This document shows, piece by piece, positions 39,670 to 44,200 of a DNA stretch of 44,200 bases (the first letter of the stretch is position 1; each line of letters starts with the position of its first letter). The stretch spans positions 1 to 44,200 of the forward strand of contig CAIWKO010000017.1 of assembly GCA_903913285.1 (NCBI GenBank), written 5' to 3'. Made by a program: the position numbers and the translations under genes. The notes under the pieces were generated by a model that was given only the letters and a program-made list of their open reading frames with translations, ran no database searches and was not told the DNA's origin. This stretch comes from an uncultured Bacteroidales bacterium (GTDB lineage Bacteria > Bacteroidota > Bacteroidia > Bacteroidales > CAIWKO01).

Positions 39670-40614
39670 ATGAAAGTTCCTGATAAGGAAAGCATTTTGC
39701 AAGCTGCTGAACGGATATTGCCCTATATTAATCGTACGTCTGTTCTAACTTGCGAAACCCTGAACAACATGTTTCAAGCGCAATTGTACTTCAAATGCGA
39801 GAACTTTCAAAAAGCAGGTGCTTTCAAATCGAGGGGAGCCTGCAATGCTGTTTTTTCGCTGAATGAAAACCAACTTAAAAACGGGGTTGCAACCCATTCT
39901 TCAGGCAATCATGCACAGGCATTGGCACGTGCAGCAAAACTGCGAAACACTAAAGCATATATCGTGATGCCCGACAACTCATCAAAAGTAAAAATTGATG
40001 CAGTAAGGTCTTATGGAGGCATTATCACTTTTTGCATTCCAACTCTGGAAGCCCGTGAAACTACCTTGCAAAAAGTAATCGCAGAAACTCATGCTACCGA
40101 GATACATCCTTACAACAATTATACTATTATAGCCGGTCAAGCTACGGCTGCCAAAGAACTGATAGAAGATATTCCCTCTCTTGATTATATTATTGCCCCA
40201 GTTGGTGGCGGTGGTTTATTGAGCGGAACTGCTCTGGCGACTCATTATTTTTCTCCTGCCACAAAAGTTATTGCTGCTGAACCCGAACAAGCCAACGATG
40301 CTTTTCAGTCGTTCTATTCAAAGAAATTCATCCCTTCTGTAAATCCTAATACTATAGCTGATGGCTTGCGAACTTCGCTCGGAGATAAAACATTTCCGAT
40401 AATAGTGGAACATGTTCAGGATATTTTCACTGTCTCTGAAACTGATATTGTTGAATGCATGAAACTCATCTGGGAACGCATGAAGATCATTATTGAAACT
40501 TCATCAGCCGTTACTTTGGCAGCTGTGAGAAACAATTCGCGACTGTTCAAAGATAAAAAAGTCGGGATTATTATTTCTGGGGGTAATGTTGATCTTAAAA
40601 ATTTACCTTGGTAG
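39670..40614 (+). CDS. Serine/threonine dehydratase family PLP enzyme
   Basis: This 314-residue fold-type II PLP enzyme is near the catabolic threonine dehydratase, threo-3-hydroxyaspartate dehydratase and serine racemase group. The PLP Lys53 is in KAGAFKSRGA, the phosphate loop is PVGGGGLLSG, and THSSGNHAQALA contacts the substrate. No ACT regulatory domain is present, so it is a short catabolic or racemase-type form. It could convert Thr or Ser to 2-oxoacid and ammonia, feeding the oxidoreductase upstream (inference). It is separated from that operon by a strong terminator and is convergent with the exosortase gene. Confidence 0.88.
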   Translation: MKVPDKESILQAAERILPYINRTSVLTCETLNNMFQAQLYFKCENFQKAGAFKSRGACNAVFSLNENQLKNGVATHSSGNHAQALARAAKLRNTKAYIVMPDNSSKVKIDAVRSYGGIITFCIPTLEARETTLQKVIAETHATEIHPYNNYTIIAGQATAAKELIEDIPSLDYIIAPVGGGGLLSGTALATHYFSPATKVIAAEPEQANDAFQSFYSKKFIPSVNPNTIADGLRTSLGDKTFPIIVEHVQDIFTVSETDIVECMKLIWERMKIIIETSSAVTLAAVRNNSRLFKDKKVGIIISGGNVDLKNLPW

Positions 40615-40664: not shown

Positions 40665-41255
40665 TTAAGCATTAATTTTCTTTCTATCGTTTCTTCTGAC
40701 TACCCAAACCCACATACCAAAAGTAAAAATATAAACGACTACATTAAAAATGTAATCGTGATTGAATTGCATATGTTTTGGAAAAGCATGAAAAGCAAAA
40801 ATAAGAAGTACTATCCTAATGATATTTAATATATTAATAATAATCACACCAAGGATAGAATAAAACAATTTTCTTTTCCATTTACCAGGATAAGAACATA
40901 TTAATGCAACAAAAAATATCCAGAGTTGGATTCCCAGGCAGTAATCACCAATGCCCACCCAAGCCAAGCCTGGAACTAATAATTTATTATTTGAAATAAT
41001 TTGACCCGAATATCCCAAAATCGAAAAAACAAATTTGGAAGAATATAATAGCCCAATCCTTATCCAATCGTTAAAATGTTCCCATCCAGCTGAAAGCCAA
41101 GGCCAATGTCGGTCAGTTATAGGAATTTTCTCCTCACCCAAGAACCAGCTTAACAACTTCCAGGCAATATAAATAATTGCAACTCTTAGGATAAAAAAAA
41201 TCGTTTGCCTATTCTCAGCAATTAATGATCTGCATTTTTTAATTATCCCTTTCAT
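40665..41255 (-). CDS. Exosortase/archaeosortase family protein
   Basis: This 196-residue membrane transpeptidase has several helices and the family triad: Cys106 in GDYCLGIQLWIFF, Arg147 in NILNIIRI and His166 in FNHDYIF. Exosortases process proteins carrying a C-terminal motif-helix-basic tail at the outer face of the inner membrane. The likely substrate is the next gene upstream (33 bp), which carries a VPLDNG-helix-KKRK tail. No PEP-CTERM-type polysaccharide cluster lies in view. The family in Bacteroidota is called XrtF or XrtN by some annotators; I cannot assign the subtype. Confidence 0.85.
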   Translation of the reverse strand: MKGIIKKCRSLIAENRQTIFFILRVAIIYIAWKLLSWFLGEEKIPITDRHWPWLSAGWEHFNDWIRIGLLYSSKFVFSILGYSGQIISNNKLLVPGLAWVGIGDYCLGIQLWIFFVALICSYPGKWKRKLFYSILGVIIINILNIIRIVLLIFAFHAFPKHMQFNHDYIFNVVVYIFTFGMWVWVVRRNDRKKINA

Positions 41256-41288
41256 CAGAGCTTTTCAGCTTAAATATGATTTTGGGAA

Positions 41289-41534
41289 TTATTTTTCTGC
41301 AGAATAATTATTTGGCTTTTTCAACTTTCTTTTCTTTACTACTAGTATTGTTGCGCCAAATGCAACACCTGCAATTAAAAGAAAGATGTCTCCATTATCA
41401 AGAGGAACTCCATATCCGACAGGTAGTCCTGTTGGTCCTGGATCACCGCCAGGACCTCCTGGATCATCTGCTAAAGTATAACCAATATTTAATGTAAAAA
41501 GCAAAAAAACTATAAATAAAAATTTTCGTATCAT
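41289..41534 (-). CDS. Tiny exosortase-substrate-like protein (VPLDNG tail)
   Basis: This 81-residue protein has a Sec signal peptide (1-22, ending TLA), a short Asp/Gly/Pro stretch (23-42), the tripartite tail VPLDNG (43-48), a transmembrane helix (49-66) and basic KKRKLKK (67-73). This is the layout of an exosortase sorting signal and resembles the Bacteroidota PID-CTERM type (P-I/L-D-G/N-G). After cleavage only about 20 residues would remain. An AAAAGGA ribosome site lies 8 bases before the ATG. The gap is 33 bp to the exosortase and 58 bp to the T9SS adhesin upstream, so the three may form an operon. Confidence 0.82.
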   Translation of the reverse strand: MIRKFLFIVFLLFTLNIGYTLADDPGGPGGDPGPTGLPVGYGVPLDNGDIFLLIAGVAFGATILVVKKRKLKKPNNYSAEK

Positions 41535-41592: not shown

Positions 41593-44200
41593 TTATTGAA
41601 TAATTATCTTTCTAATGGTATTCACACCATTATCATCTATTGTTTCAACAAAATATGTTCCGACTGCAAAATTAGTATTAATTTCTATTCTATTAACAGA
41701 TTTAGGAGAATTTATTACTTTAACCATCTGCCCGAAACTATTGTAAACAATTATTTGGACAATATTAATCAAAGTTGGATTATCTATAAAAATCTTATGA
41801 TCATAGGCATAGATATTCAGATCACCGTTATGTTCAGCAATTCCTGTTAAATTCTCGCCAAAAATCAAATTAAAGCGAGGAGTCGTAACAGACGGATTAT
41901 AAACATGATTAAATTGATAGACTTGTTGTTGACGAAGATCTATTGTTTGATTGGCAACTAAATCCTGTAAACTGATAGGTAAATCAATATTAAATGATGA
42001 AGCTCCGTTAGCTGTTAGCGTATATGTACCGGATGCTGTACATTTAAAGATCATAGGCATAATTGAATATTCACTAATTTCAGGAATTTCATTGACTGAG
42101 AGAGTATCTCCATTCCAAATAGTTGCTATCTGAGGAGCTTCTGGTAATCCATACATTTTTTCAATATCATAATCCGGGTCATAAAAGTTGGTCGCATCAC
42201 TATTAAAACTTACTACCAATCCATCAGAATATGTATTGCCAGCTACATTAATTGAAAGTGTATTATCAGTTGCATCCTTATAATAAGCAACCGCACTTTG
42301 AACACGCTTACTTTGCATAATGGTGATACTTGCACCAGAATTATTCGCTTTAACCAAAAACCCCTGACTCGCAGGAATAATTCCACCTCCTGAAAGAGTT
42401 CCTGTTGTACCATTCCAGGTTTGATAGTTACCAATCGACGGATTCCATACCCACAAAGAGTTGTCAACATTGGTTTTTGTCCAATTGTTAATATCGGCTG
42501 TTATTGCCGATGTGAACATATTTCCAATAAGATTATTCCCTCGTGTTGACCCACTCCATTGTAATGGTAAAATATGATCACCTTCATTCAGGTTGCCTGT
42601 ATAGGTGCGGGTAACATTACCTGTAGTTGATGTACTAGACCATAATGCAAATCCTTTCCCAACAGTTAAAGGAACTGTAACAGAAGTTATTAATGGGTTA
42701 AAGGTATTTATTGCTTCATTATAATCTTTCAAGTATAAATCTGTCCACATTCCAGATAATGCACCTTGAACAGGAGATGTAATATAATGCCATGCATTTT
42801 GTGAAATATACCGTTCAACCATTGGAGTCAATGAATAATTTACATTTCCATTATTAATATAAGATCCTGTTCCTATTGCACTTGATTTAATTGTAAATTG
42901 TCCATTTACTGTAAGTGCTTGACCTGAGTTAACTGTCAAGTATCCATTAGGATTGATAGTTAGGTTTTTACAAGTACCAGTCGTAGTAAGTGTGCAATTA
43001 CCAGCGATGAATGCATTAGTAGTTGAGGCAGGAACACCATGATCCCAATATGTAGATACATTCCAGTTTCCGGTTCCGGTAAATGTTGTGGTTGTGGGAA
43101 CAGTTGTAATAATCACCTGAGTTGTTGCAATAACAGTCGGACATCCACCAGATGCTGCAATTGTATATGTAACGGTATAAGTTCCCAATGTACTTGAACT
43201 AGGAGTAATATCTCCAGTTAATGAGTTTATGCTTAACCCAACAGGAGAAGCAGTGTATGTTCCGCCTGTAGTACCACTAAAAGTAACAGACTGTGGAGTA
43301 CTAACAGATGTGTAGAAAGGTGAACTAGGATAGCTTATGGAAGCAGTAGGTAATGGTGTAATTATTACCGTTACGTCCAACCTTGTTGAACTTTCGCATC
43401 CTAATACACTTGATTGGCTTGCATAATAATGATTACCATTTACCAATGATGTTGAGGACGCTAATAAACTTCCACCTGTAGATGCATCATACCATTTTAT
43501 ATTATTACCAACAGCAGTCAAGTTTGATACTGTAGAAGATGCATTTGAACAAAACGATTGAGGCGTAGTGCCTGTTGGCGCGCTGGGATTATTTACCGTT
43601 ACTGTCCATGTTCCCAATGAAACGGTTGGAGATGTATTACAGGTTCCGTCATTTGCATAACGCTGATAACTTGTGGTAGTTATTAAACCTGCCGGAGGTG
43701 TGTATGTTGCCGATGTTGCTCCGCTGATGGCTGCAGTATAAGAATCTGCTGACGACCTCCATGAATAGGTTATGCTTCCATCTCCTCCGCTTGCTGCAGT
43801 TGTACTGCCTATTACTGATGGGGTTCCTGCATAACAAATGGTTTGACCAGCTGAGGCAATAGTGCCCGCTGAGAATGCTCCGAGAACTGTGATTACTTGT
43901 CGGTCGCCGTTCCAAACATCGAAACAGGTTGTTCCTCCGGCATCGGTAACTCTCAGAGCAAAGGTATAAGTACCGGTTGTAAGAGCACCTATAGTAGATC
44001 CTGCTAAAGTAACGCTGGTGCCTCCGCTTACCGCAGTCCAGAAACCTAAAGACCATGTACCGGTTGGAGCAGCAATTGTACCTGTTTGTTTATACCATTG
44101 ATAGGTAGGTGTAGAACCGCCACTGGGAGCAGTGGTATAAGTAATATTTGCCGGTTGGGTATTATTACAAATAGTTTGTGTTGAACTGGCAATAGTGCCC
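41593..44200 (-). CDS. Large T9SS type A adhesin-like protein (5' end outside window)
   Basis: The frame is open from the stop at 41593 to the right edge, giving at least 869 residues with the N-terminus missing. The true start lies outside; the TTG at 43617 is internal. The outermost part has repeated Ig-like modules with IAS-x-Q-TIC, TYQW and YTPP words. A CHU/Ig-like domain follows with [18 protein letters not shown], then an autotransporter-like G8/beta-helix region ([34 protein letters not shown]). The final ~80 residues ([28 protein letters not shown] ... GTYFVETID) are the type A T9SS sorting domain. It is a surface or secreted adhesin, monocistronic or the lead gene of the exosortase run. 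Confidence 0.88.

Follow-up and report, generated by a model that had tools for sequence, protein, structure and literature searches.

Exosortases cleave near a short sorting motif and transfer the newly formed C-terminus to an acceptor. The described kind closest to the locus analysed here is the little-described PID-CTERM type, a miniature pre-protein (hereafter, mini) encoded beside the exosortase XrtX. The term PID-CTERM was not found among the open-licence papers listed, and subscription journals lay mostly outside this coverage. With regard to type IX secretion (T9SS), passages of one article state that type B substrate genes are often directly followed by the gene for a cognate SprF-like shuttle, and that RemA is partly anchored and partly released (PMC12618676). 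Excerpts of two other articles report that SprF and PorG carry twin-cysteine motifs (PMC12635249), and that the sorting tail alone is well resolved in the RemZ-bound translocon (PMC10994853). According to a passage on Flavobacterium johnsoniae, deletion of xrtF leads to the loss of zorbs and a much reduced biofilm, as do deletions of porV, porU and porZ (PMC10936215), and a passage of one further paper speculates that PEP-CTERM and T9SS anchoring might have a linking sugar in common. The passages of these last two papers, which treat both exosortases and type IX secretion, do not describe the three-gene arrangement presented below, and the link of the mini to a Rem-like T9SS cargo seems to be unreported within the open-licence literature searched.

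The window, namely, the whole stretch of DNA analysed, is the entire contig C17 (44,200 nt). In order of transcription on the minus strand, it carries a gene with a T9SS sorting tail, a mini gene and an exosortase gene, separated by gaps of 58 nt and then 33 nt. The features of this trio are as follows:

41593-44199, minus strand: gene of a T9SS type A cargo, truncated at its 5' side by the contig end, with 868 aa visible (TIGR04183, 24.3 bits)
41821-42948, minus strand: Rem-like module ahead of the T9SS sorting tail; 71% identity to the second copy; member of profile A5, which matches RemZ and RemA
41596-41787, minus strand: T9SS type A C-terminal sorting domain, residues 805-868 (TIGR04183)
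41289-41534, minus strand: mini substrate-like gene, 81 aa; second copy at L003 5288-5554; dN/dS approximately 0.28
41469-41534, minus strand: putative signal peptide of the mini, residues 1-22, assigned by eye from the translation
41406-41468, minus strand: predicted mature Asp/Gly/Pro-rich stretch, residues 23-43, from the translation aligned with the second copy
41388-41408, minus strand: VPLDNGD motif, residues 43-49, the same in both copies
41337-41387, minus strand: hydrophobic segment of the mini tail, residues 50-66, from the translation
41292-41336, minus strand: basic C-terminal tail of the mini, residues 67-81, from the translation
40665-41255, minus strand: exosortase family gene, 196 aa; XrtX is the nearest NCBIfam subfamily, below its cut-off; AlphaFold mean pLDDT 87.9
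40938-40940, minus strand: codon of C106, the proposed catalytic Cys, invariant in the 12- and 40-sequence alignments
40815-40817, minus strand: codon of R147, the proposed catalytic Arg, invariant in the 12- and 40-sequence alignments
40758-40760, minus strand: codon of H166, the proposed catalytic His, invariant in 40 sequences and at least 90% conserved in the 12-sequence set

A promoter scan yielded no excess over shuffles, and the single terminator-like site, 40759-40735 (minus strand), falls within the exosortase gene. A phage origin of the mini and the exosortase was rejected, given that neither protein had a PHROGs match at E up to 0.01. Outside the trio, and named by inspection only, a threonine dehydratase-like gene (39670-40614) is convergent with the exosortase gene, and the segment 36892-39595 holds a ferredoxin-like gene together with three subunits resembling 2-oxoacid:ferredoxin oxidoreductase.

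An earlier note on this DNA had recognized the last gene as an exosortase with a Cys/Arg/His triad, and the present searches agree. The window exosortase scored 58.1 bits and the second copy in this genome 52.2 bits against the exosortase/archaeosortase superfamily model TIGR04178 (cut-off 23), while the Pfam model PF09721 gave 23.4 bits for the window protein, just under its cut-off of 25.7. Cys106 and Arg147 were invariant and His166 at least 90% conserved among 12 aligned sequences, and all three were invariant among 40; we take the conserved Cys, Arg and His of TIGR04178 members to be the catalytic residues. XrtX was the nearest subfamily model, and no listed subfamily cut-off was reached: membership of XrtX (NF046081) was rejected at 101.5 and 92.3 bits for the two copies (cut-off 170), and that of XrtY (NF046083) at 81.8 and 77.9 bits (cut-off 160). 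The genome has just two exosortases (TIGR04178, E up to 0.01). A search of the named genome contigs with the window exosortase confirmed no close relative, and its AlphaFold model, although good (87.9), returned no PDB match in Foldseek at E up to 0.001.

The small gene 33 nt upstream of the exosortase had been described as coding for a signal peptide, an Asp/Gly/Pro-rich stretch, a VPLDNG motif, a helix and a basic end, and all of these parts are present in the 81-aa ORF: the putative signal peptide (residues 1-22) is followed by 21 residues (DDPGGPGGDPGPTGLPVGYGV), PLDNGD, 17 hydrophobic residues and KKRKLKKPNNYSAEK. The signal peptide cut was placed by eye between YTLA and DD, and a crude script put it at 29 instead. 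The pattern P-x-D-x-G, a motif form derived from relatives that match PID_CTERM, is present with the hydrophobic helix and the basic C-terminal end in both copies of the mini (as PLDNGD), and the mature stretch of both lacks Cys. Strict PID_CTERM membership of the window mini was rejected, as it scored 12 bits in the genome search against a curated cut-off of 26 (NF046080), and neither copy was matched by hmmscan with PID_CTERM at E up to 1. A third candidate mini, C18:42342-42503 on the plus strand (E 0.16), was discarded as an antisense frame inside a thioredoxin-like ORF.

A second trio was found on contig C10 in the same order, encoding a T9SS-tail protein of 1099 aa, a mini of 88 aa (79 aa if started at an internal Met) and an exosortase of 192 aa. 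Between the copies, the identity was 80-81% for the exosortase, 57-59% for the mini and 71% for the module that precedes the sorting tail, and VPLDNGD was unchanged in the C10 mini. The differences between the copies were third-position-biased, with dN/dS values, computable for the mini and the exosortase but not for the module, of approximately 0.28 and 0.10, respectively (dS near saturation). The presence of a second, diverged exosortase–mini pair in the genome indicates that the pair is not due to chance. Approximately 20 nt past the exosortase gene of the C10 copy (L003:4407-4640), we observed a tandem repeat of approximately 21 nt, with NDQNESV units on the minus strand.

At L009, L011 and L015, loci from the same taxonomic order, minis adjoining homologous exosortases scored 47.7, 44.6 and 32.3 bits against PID_CTERM (cut-off 26), in support of the earlier proposal of PID-CTERM as the nearest signal. 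Conservation of the tail beside the exosortase, on which that note had staked its case, held in part: among 49 exosortase loci of this taxonomic order, a P[IL]DGG mini was found at nine and a PVGSG-type mini at L010, but none was seen at 37 (two loci were left out because the exosortase was not recognized by the regular expression). Among 20 XrtX-like loci in genomes without a PID_CTERM match at E up to 0.001, variant minis lay just upstream at five, with the motifs PLDSN, PVNGG, PVDGG, PVNGG and PADNG, and four of the five stood in full trios. Given the variants PLDSN, PVNGG, PVDGG and PADNG at XrtX-like loci, the PLDNGD tail of the window fits a range of variants and is not a separate invention. 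The exosortase and mini of the window are thus diverged kin of the PID-CTERM and XrtX pairing, which is known although little described.

Two further expectations concerned the size of the cargo and the pairing. The mini is not unusually small cargo as had been supposed, for small size is normal in the family: 141 of the 150 listed PID_CTERM matches lay in frames of at most 130 aa. Just one of the 150 was found in a frame of more than 200 aa, namely, the 35.5-bit match at L096 (G246 C1:2167132), which ends a 995-aa frame with a start that is hydrophobic as far as seen. A one-to-one pairing was observed in this genome, with two exosortases and two minis, but does not extend to the family in general, with five PID_CTERM matches against one XrtX match in G116.

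The proposal that the peptide stands alone overlooked the T9SS cargo gene 58 nt upstream, which is present in both copies and has counterparts upstream of 57 of 102 class-sampled minis. The sorting domain of the window cargo scored 24.3 bits and that of the second copy 25.8 bits against TIGR04183 (cut-off 23); with the Pfam T9SS model PF18962 the window cargo scored 19.7 bits, below the cut-off of 27. After removal of the last 90 aa, 57 of 59 upstream T9SS proteins, including both from this genome, fell into one single-linkage blastp cluster, and the part common to these cargoes is a module of approximately 370 aa directly before the sorting tail. No Pfam family covers this module; only PKD-type and SpaA matches were obtained, in four families with few members. 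The module profile, which was built from cargoes beside minis, matched residues 657-1031 of RemZ (E 3.8e-44) and residues 990-1351 of RemA (E 4.1e-40), both from F. johnsoniae, among the PDB sequences, with a weaker match to Mfa5 of P. gingivalis. As a single sequence, the window cargo had no phmmer match in PDB at E up to 1. The AlphaFold model of the module was poor (66.5), and its Foldseek matches were set aside.

We then counted neighbours in a class-wide sample of 295 genomes, in which PID_CTERM was matched at E up to 0.001 in 131 genomes and over its cut-off in 123. The 102 minis counted were taken from the best of the 150 listed PID_CTERM matches (more matches exist), and T9SS-tail genes were counted with our own HMM. 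A T9SS-tail gene lay directly upstream on the same strand for 57 minis and an exosortase directly downstream for 47, with both neighbours at 20 minis and neither at 18; the median gaps were 31 nt between cargo and mini and 21 nt between mini and exosortase. By curated models, 53 of 78 same-strand upstream neighbours matched TIGR04183 (E up to 0.01) and 49 of 78 matched PF18962, while 47 of 84 downstream neighbours matched TIGR04178. In 20 genomes, T9SS-tail matches numbered from 18 to at least 150 per genome, an estimated few per cent of genes; the adjacency of 57 of 102 is therefore far above chance, even allowing for kin genomes (binomial P of 1e-46 at a 5% background, with neighbours not fully independent). 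In G116, G246 and G297, each with several PID_CTERM minis, most minis were directly behind large T9SS-tail genes. Left out of the 102 were L046 (the same place as L097), a spurious minus-strand ORF in L039 and a truncated mini of 40 aa in L106, itself 173 nt downstream of a T9SS-tail gene; no mini was detected by regular expression at L096 and L124, nor at L100, a locus included for its exosortase. Other upstream genes were also observed: L118, L120, L130, L155 and L158 share one ending in FGPPGWSHDGS ahead of the mini–exosortase pair, and the fatty acid hydroxylase family PF04116 matched three of the 78 upstream neighbours.

The link was next viewed from the side of the module. Across the 295 genomes (at most seven candidates scored per genome, 150 modules listed), 38 of the 150 listed modules were followed on their own strand, within 2.5 kb, by a listed mini, two of these 38 being those of this genome, while a listed mini was on the upstream side of two and on the opposite strand of one. 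The remaining 112 had no listed mini beside them, although three of these (in G078, G201 and G169) have a variant mini. The module–mini link is thus directional but partial. When 20 genomes were examined more closely, a mini adjoined 33 of 64 modules (five of five in G297, four of 10 in G116, three of six in G246 and one of 13 in G187), including eight of eight where a genome had a single module and a single PID match, five of these eight genomes being outside the profile; both proportions overstate the link, because many of the 20 genomes were picked for a mini that follows a T9SS-tail gene. Where T9SS-tail matches in a genome numbered 72 to at least 150, its sole module could be the one beside the mini, and the genome of the window, with at least 150 such matches, has two modules, both beside minis. 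Inspection downstream of 20 further modules revealed a cryptic APLDP-type mini at two and a contig end at L323, with none visible at the rest; after the two cryptic minis are counted, 31 modules have no listed mini, of which 18 were inspected downstream and the other 13 are outside this count. Two of the minis seen in G196 (L333 and L335, 77-78 aa) carry an APLDPLSW tail in place of PIDGG, follow genes of Rem-like T9SS cargoes after 10-22 nt and are absent from the PID_CTERM matches listed. At L344 (G226), a T9SS gene with a Rem-like module was observed 88 nt before an exosortase gene, with no mini visible between them.

At the level of whole genomes, the module was present in 128 of 131 PID-positive and 56 of 164 PID-negative genomes, and in 164 of 172 genomes with an XrtX match (E up to 0.001) compared with 20 of 123 without; these are raw counts, uncorrected for phylogeny or T9SS presence, obtained with a profile from mini-adjacent cargoes. 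The XrtX cut-off was exceeded in 78 of the 295 genomes. Many flavobacterial-type minis (L038-L065 and others) carry CWPPPC just before PIDGG, a cysteine pair that could form a disulfide and that is absent from the minis of the window genome. In the 79 CWPPPC-PIDGG minis from named genome contigs (80 of 119 loci were used, and L198 yielded no mini), an exosortase was downstream of 68 and a module cargo directly upstream of 10; a module or T9SS tail was upstream of 12, and seven were full trios. L192, which comes from a metagenome-assembled genome titled Chitinophaga pinensis, carries the three genes together. The cargo linkage is lineage-dependent: the mini–exosortase pair is the steadier in the CWPPPC group, and the mini–cargo pair in other lineages.

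The trio is a real, duplicated and conserved unit, and it probably also functions as one. The observed basis is the order of the genes and their domains, the duplicated trio in the genome and, across the class, repeated finds of the whole trio or of one of its two-gene halves. Our best reading, to which we give about an even chance, is that the exosortase-processed peptide is a partner, and possibly a surface tether, of the Rem-like T9SS protein; on this reading, cargo and mini would both cross the inner membrane by Sec, and the exosortase would cut the mini at PLDNG and hand a Pro/Gly/Asp-rich peptide of approximately 20-25 residues to an envelope acceptor. The cargo would be exported through the T9SS with loss of its sorting tail, and peptide and cargo would meet at the outer membrane or cell surface, where the peptide would most likely partner the Rem-like cargo. 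Its most economical role would be to help hold the cargo at the surface, but this tether role by itself we regard as doubtful. Equally tentative is the general proposal that exosortases turn PID-CTERM minis into surface tethers, or covalent acceptors, that serve Rem-like T9SS adhesins specifically; XrtX-type enzymes would load the short Pro/Gly-rich peptide onto an envelope acceptor, and the peptide would then hold the co-encoded cargo. The absence of an upstream T9SS gene at 45 of the 102 minis counts against the cargo-partner reading.

The same counts bear on the idea that the peptide works by itself, in a structural, capping or signalling role, with a dedicated exosortase, the upstream T9SS gene being incidental. 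It would account for the 27 of 102 minis that have an exosortase neighbour and no upstream T9SS gene, and for the CWPPPC minis, 68 of 79 of which precede an exosortase while just 10 stand behind a module cargo; nevertheless, 37 of the 55 minis with no exosortase directly downstream are still behind a T9SS-tail gene, nearly all cargoes belong to one homologous family and the module occurs in nearly every PID-positive genome (128 of 131), and we consider a stand-alone unit unlikely. The linkage of 57 of 102 minis to a T9SS-tail gene, and of 38 of 150 listed modules to a downstream mini, would fit equally a mini that acts, uncleaved or transiently anchored, as an inner-membrane assembly factor, keeping the cargo export-competent or recruiting it to the T9SS until the exosortase releases or recycles the mini. 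A signal peptide and a C-terminal membrane segment would place the uncleaved mini in the inner membrane facing the periplasm, but the predicted mature stretch is very short (a crude median of 18 residues ahead of the motif, from the 98 of 104 minis for which a rule-based cut was obtained), Pro/Gly-rich and unlike a chaperone, which makes such a factor unlikely.

Adjacency could also reflect shared ancestry and not function, if the trio hitchhikes as an operon and moves as a block. In its favour, this genome acquired its two trios by duplication of a block, and the related genomes sampled are not independent; against it, mini–cargo adjacency persists without a neighbouring exosortase (37 of 102), the signal motif varies while the arrangement stays, and the adjacency is one-sided (38 downstream versus two upstream and one on the opposite strand among the 150 listed modules). 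We therefore regard hitchhiking as improbable. It appears highly improbable that the mini regulates or senses, signalling whether the cargo has been exported or lost; gene co-localization is what speaks for such a role, and no ORF recognizable by eye as a regulator was seen among the three genes or next to them in either copy. The recurrent mini–cargo link offers candidate answers on two points, the function of PID-CTERM minis and the means by which type A adhesins, RemA among them, stay at the cell surface. The tether role, if true, would connect two systems of envelope sorting hitherto considered apart.

Compared with known systems, the trio shares one or more elements with each of four. With type B T9SS substrates and their SprF-like shuttles, as portrayed in the passages concerned (PMC12618676), it shares a cargo gene followed by a dedicated partner gene; the difference is that PorP/SprF-like proteins are shuttles, whereas in the window a type A cargo is followed by the gene for a mini pre-protein. 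The placing of a mini right behind a type A cargo resembles the logic of the type B cargo–shuttle pairs. A disulfide formed by the cysteine pair in CWPPPC of the flavobacterial minis, comparable to the twin-cysteine motifs noted for SprF and PorG in excerpts of PMC12635249, was considered as a further parallel and set aside, since Cys is absent from the mature stretch of the window minis. The RemA and RemZ cargoes of F. johnsoniae have a homologous module before a type A sorting tail, as detected with the profile of the window family; the homology is through the profile, and the window protein itself has no PDB match by phmmer. The XrtF system of F. johnsoniae likewise involves a Bacteroidota exosortase, the deletion of which shares defects with T9SS mutants in the passage cited (PMC10936215), but the window exosortase scored 55 bits against the XrtF cut-off of 90; at L037, a PID-type mini lies 38 nt before an exosortase that does score as XrtF (106.8 bits). 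These parallels with the type B shuttles, RemA and XrtF are pointers and not proof towards a peptide that may hold the cargo. The nearest likeness is to PID-CTERM and XrtX (NF046080 and NF046081), in which a mini with P-x-D-x-G, a helix and a basic end is likewise encoded just upstream of a small exosortase. The window differs from it in the mini score (12 versus 26 bits) with PLDNGD as the motif, in the exosortase score (101.5 versus 170 bits) and in its tie to a T9SS cargo, of which the names of the two models make no mention.
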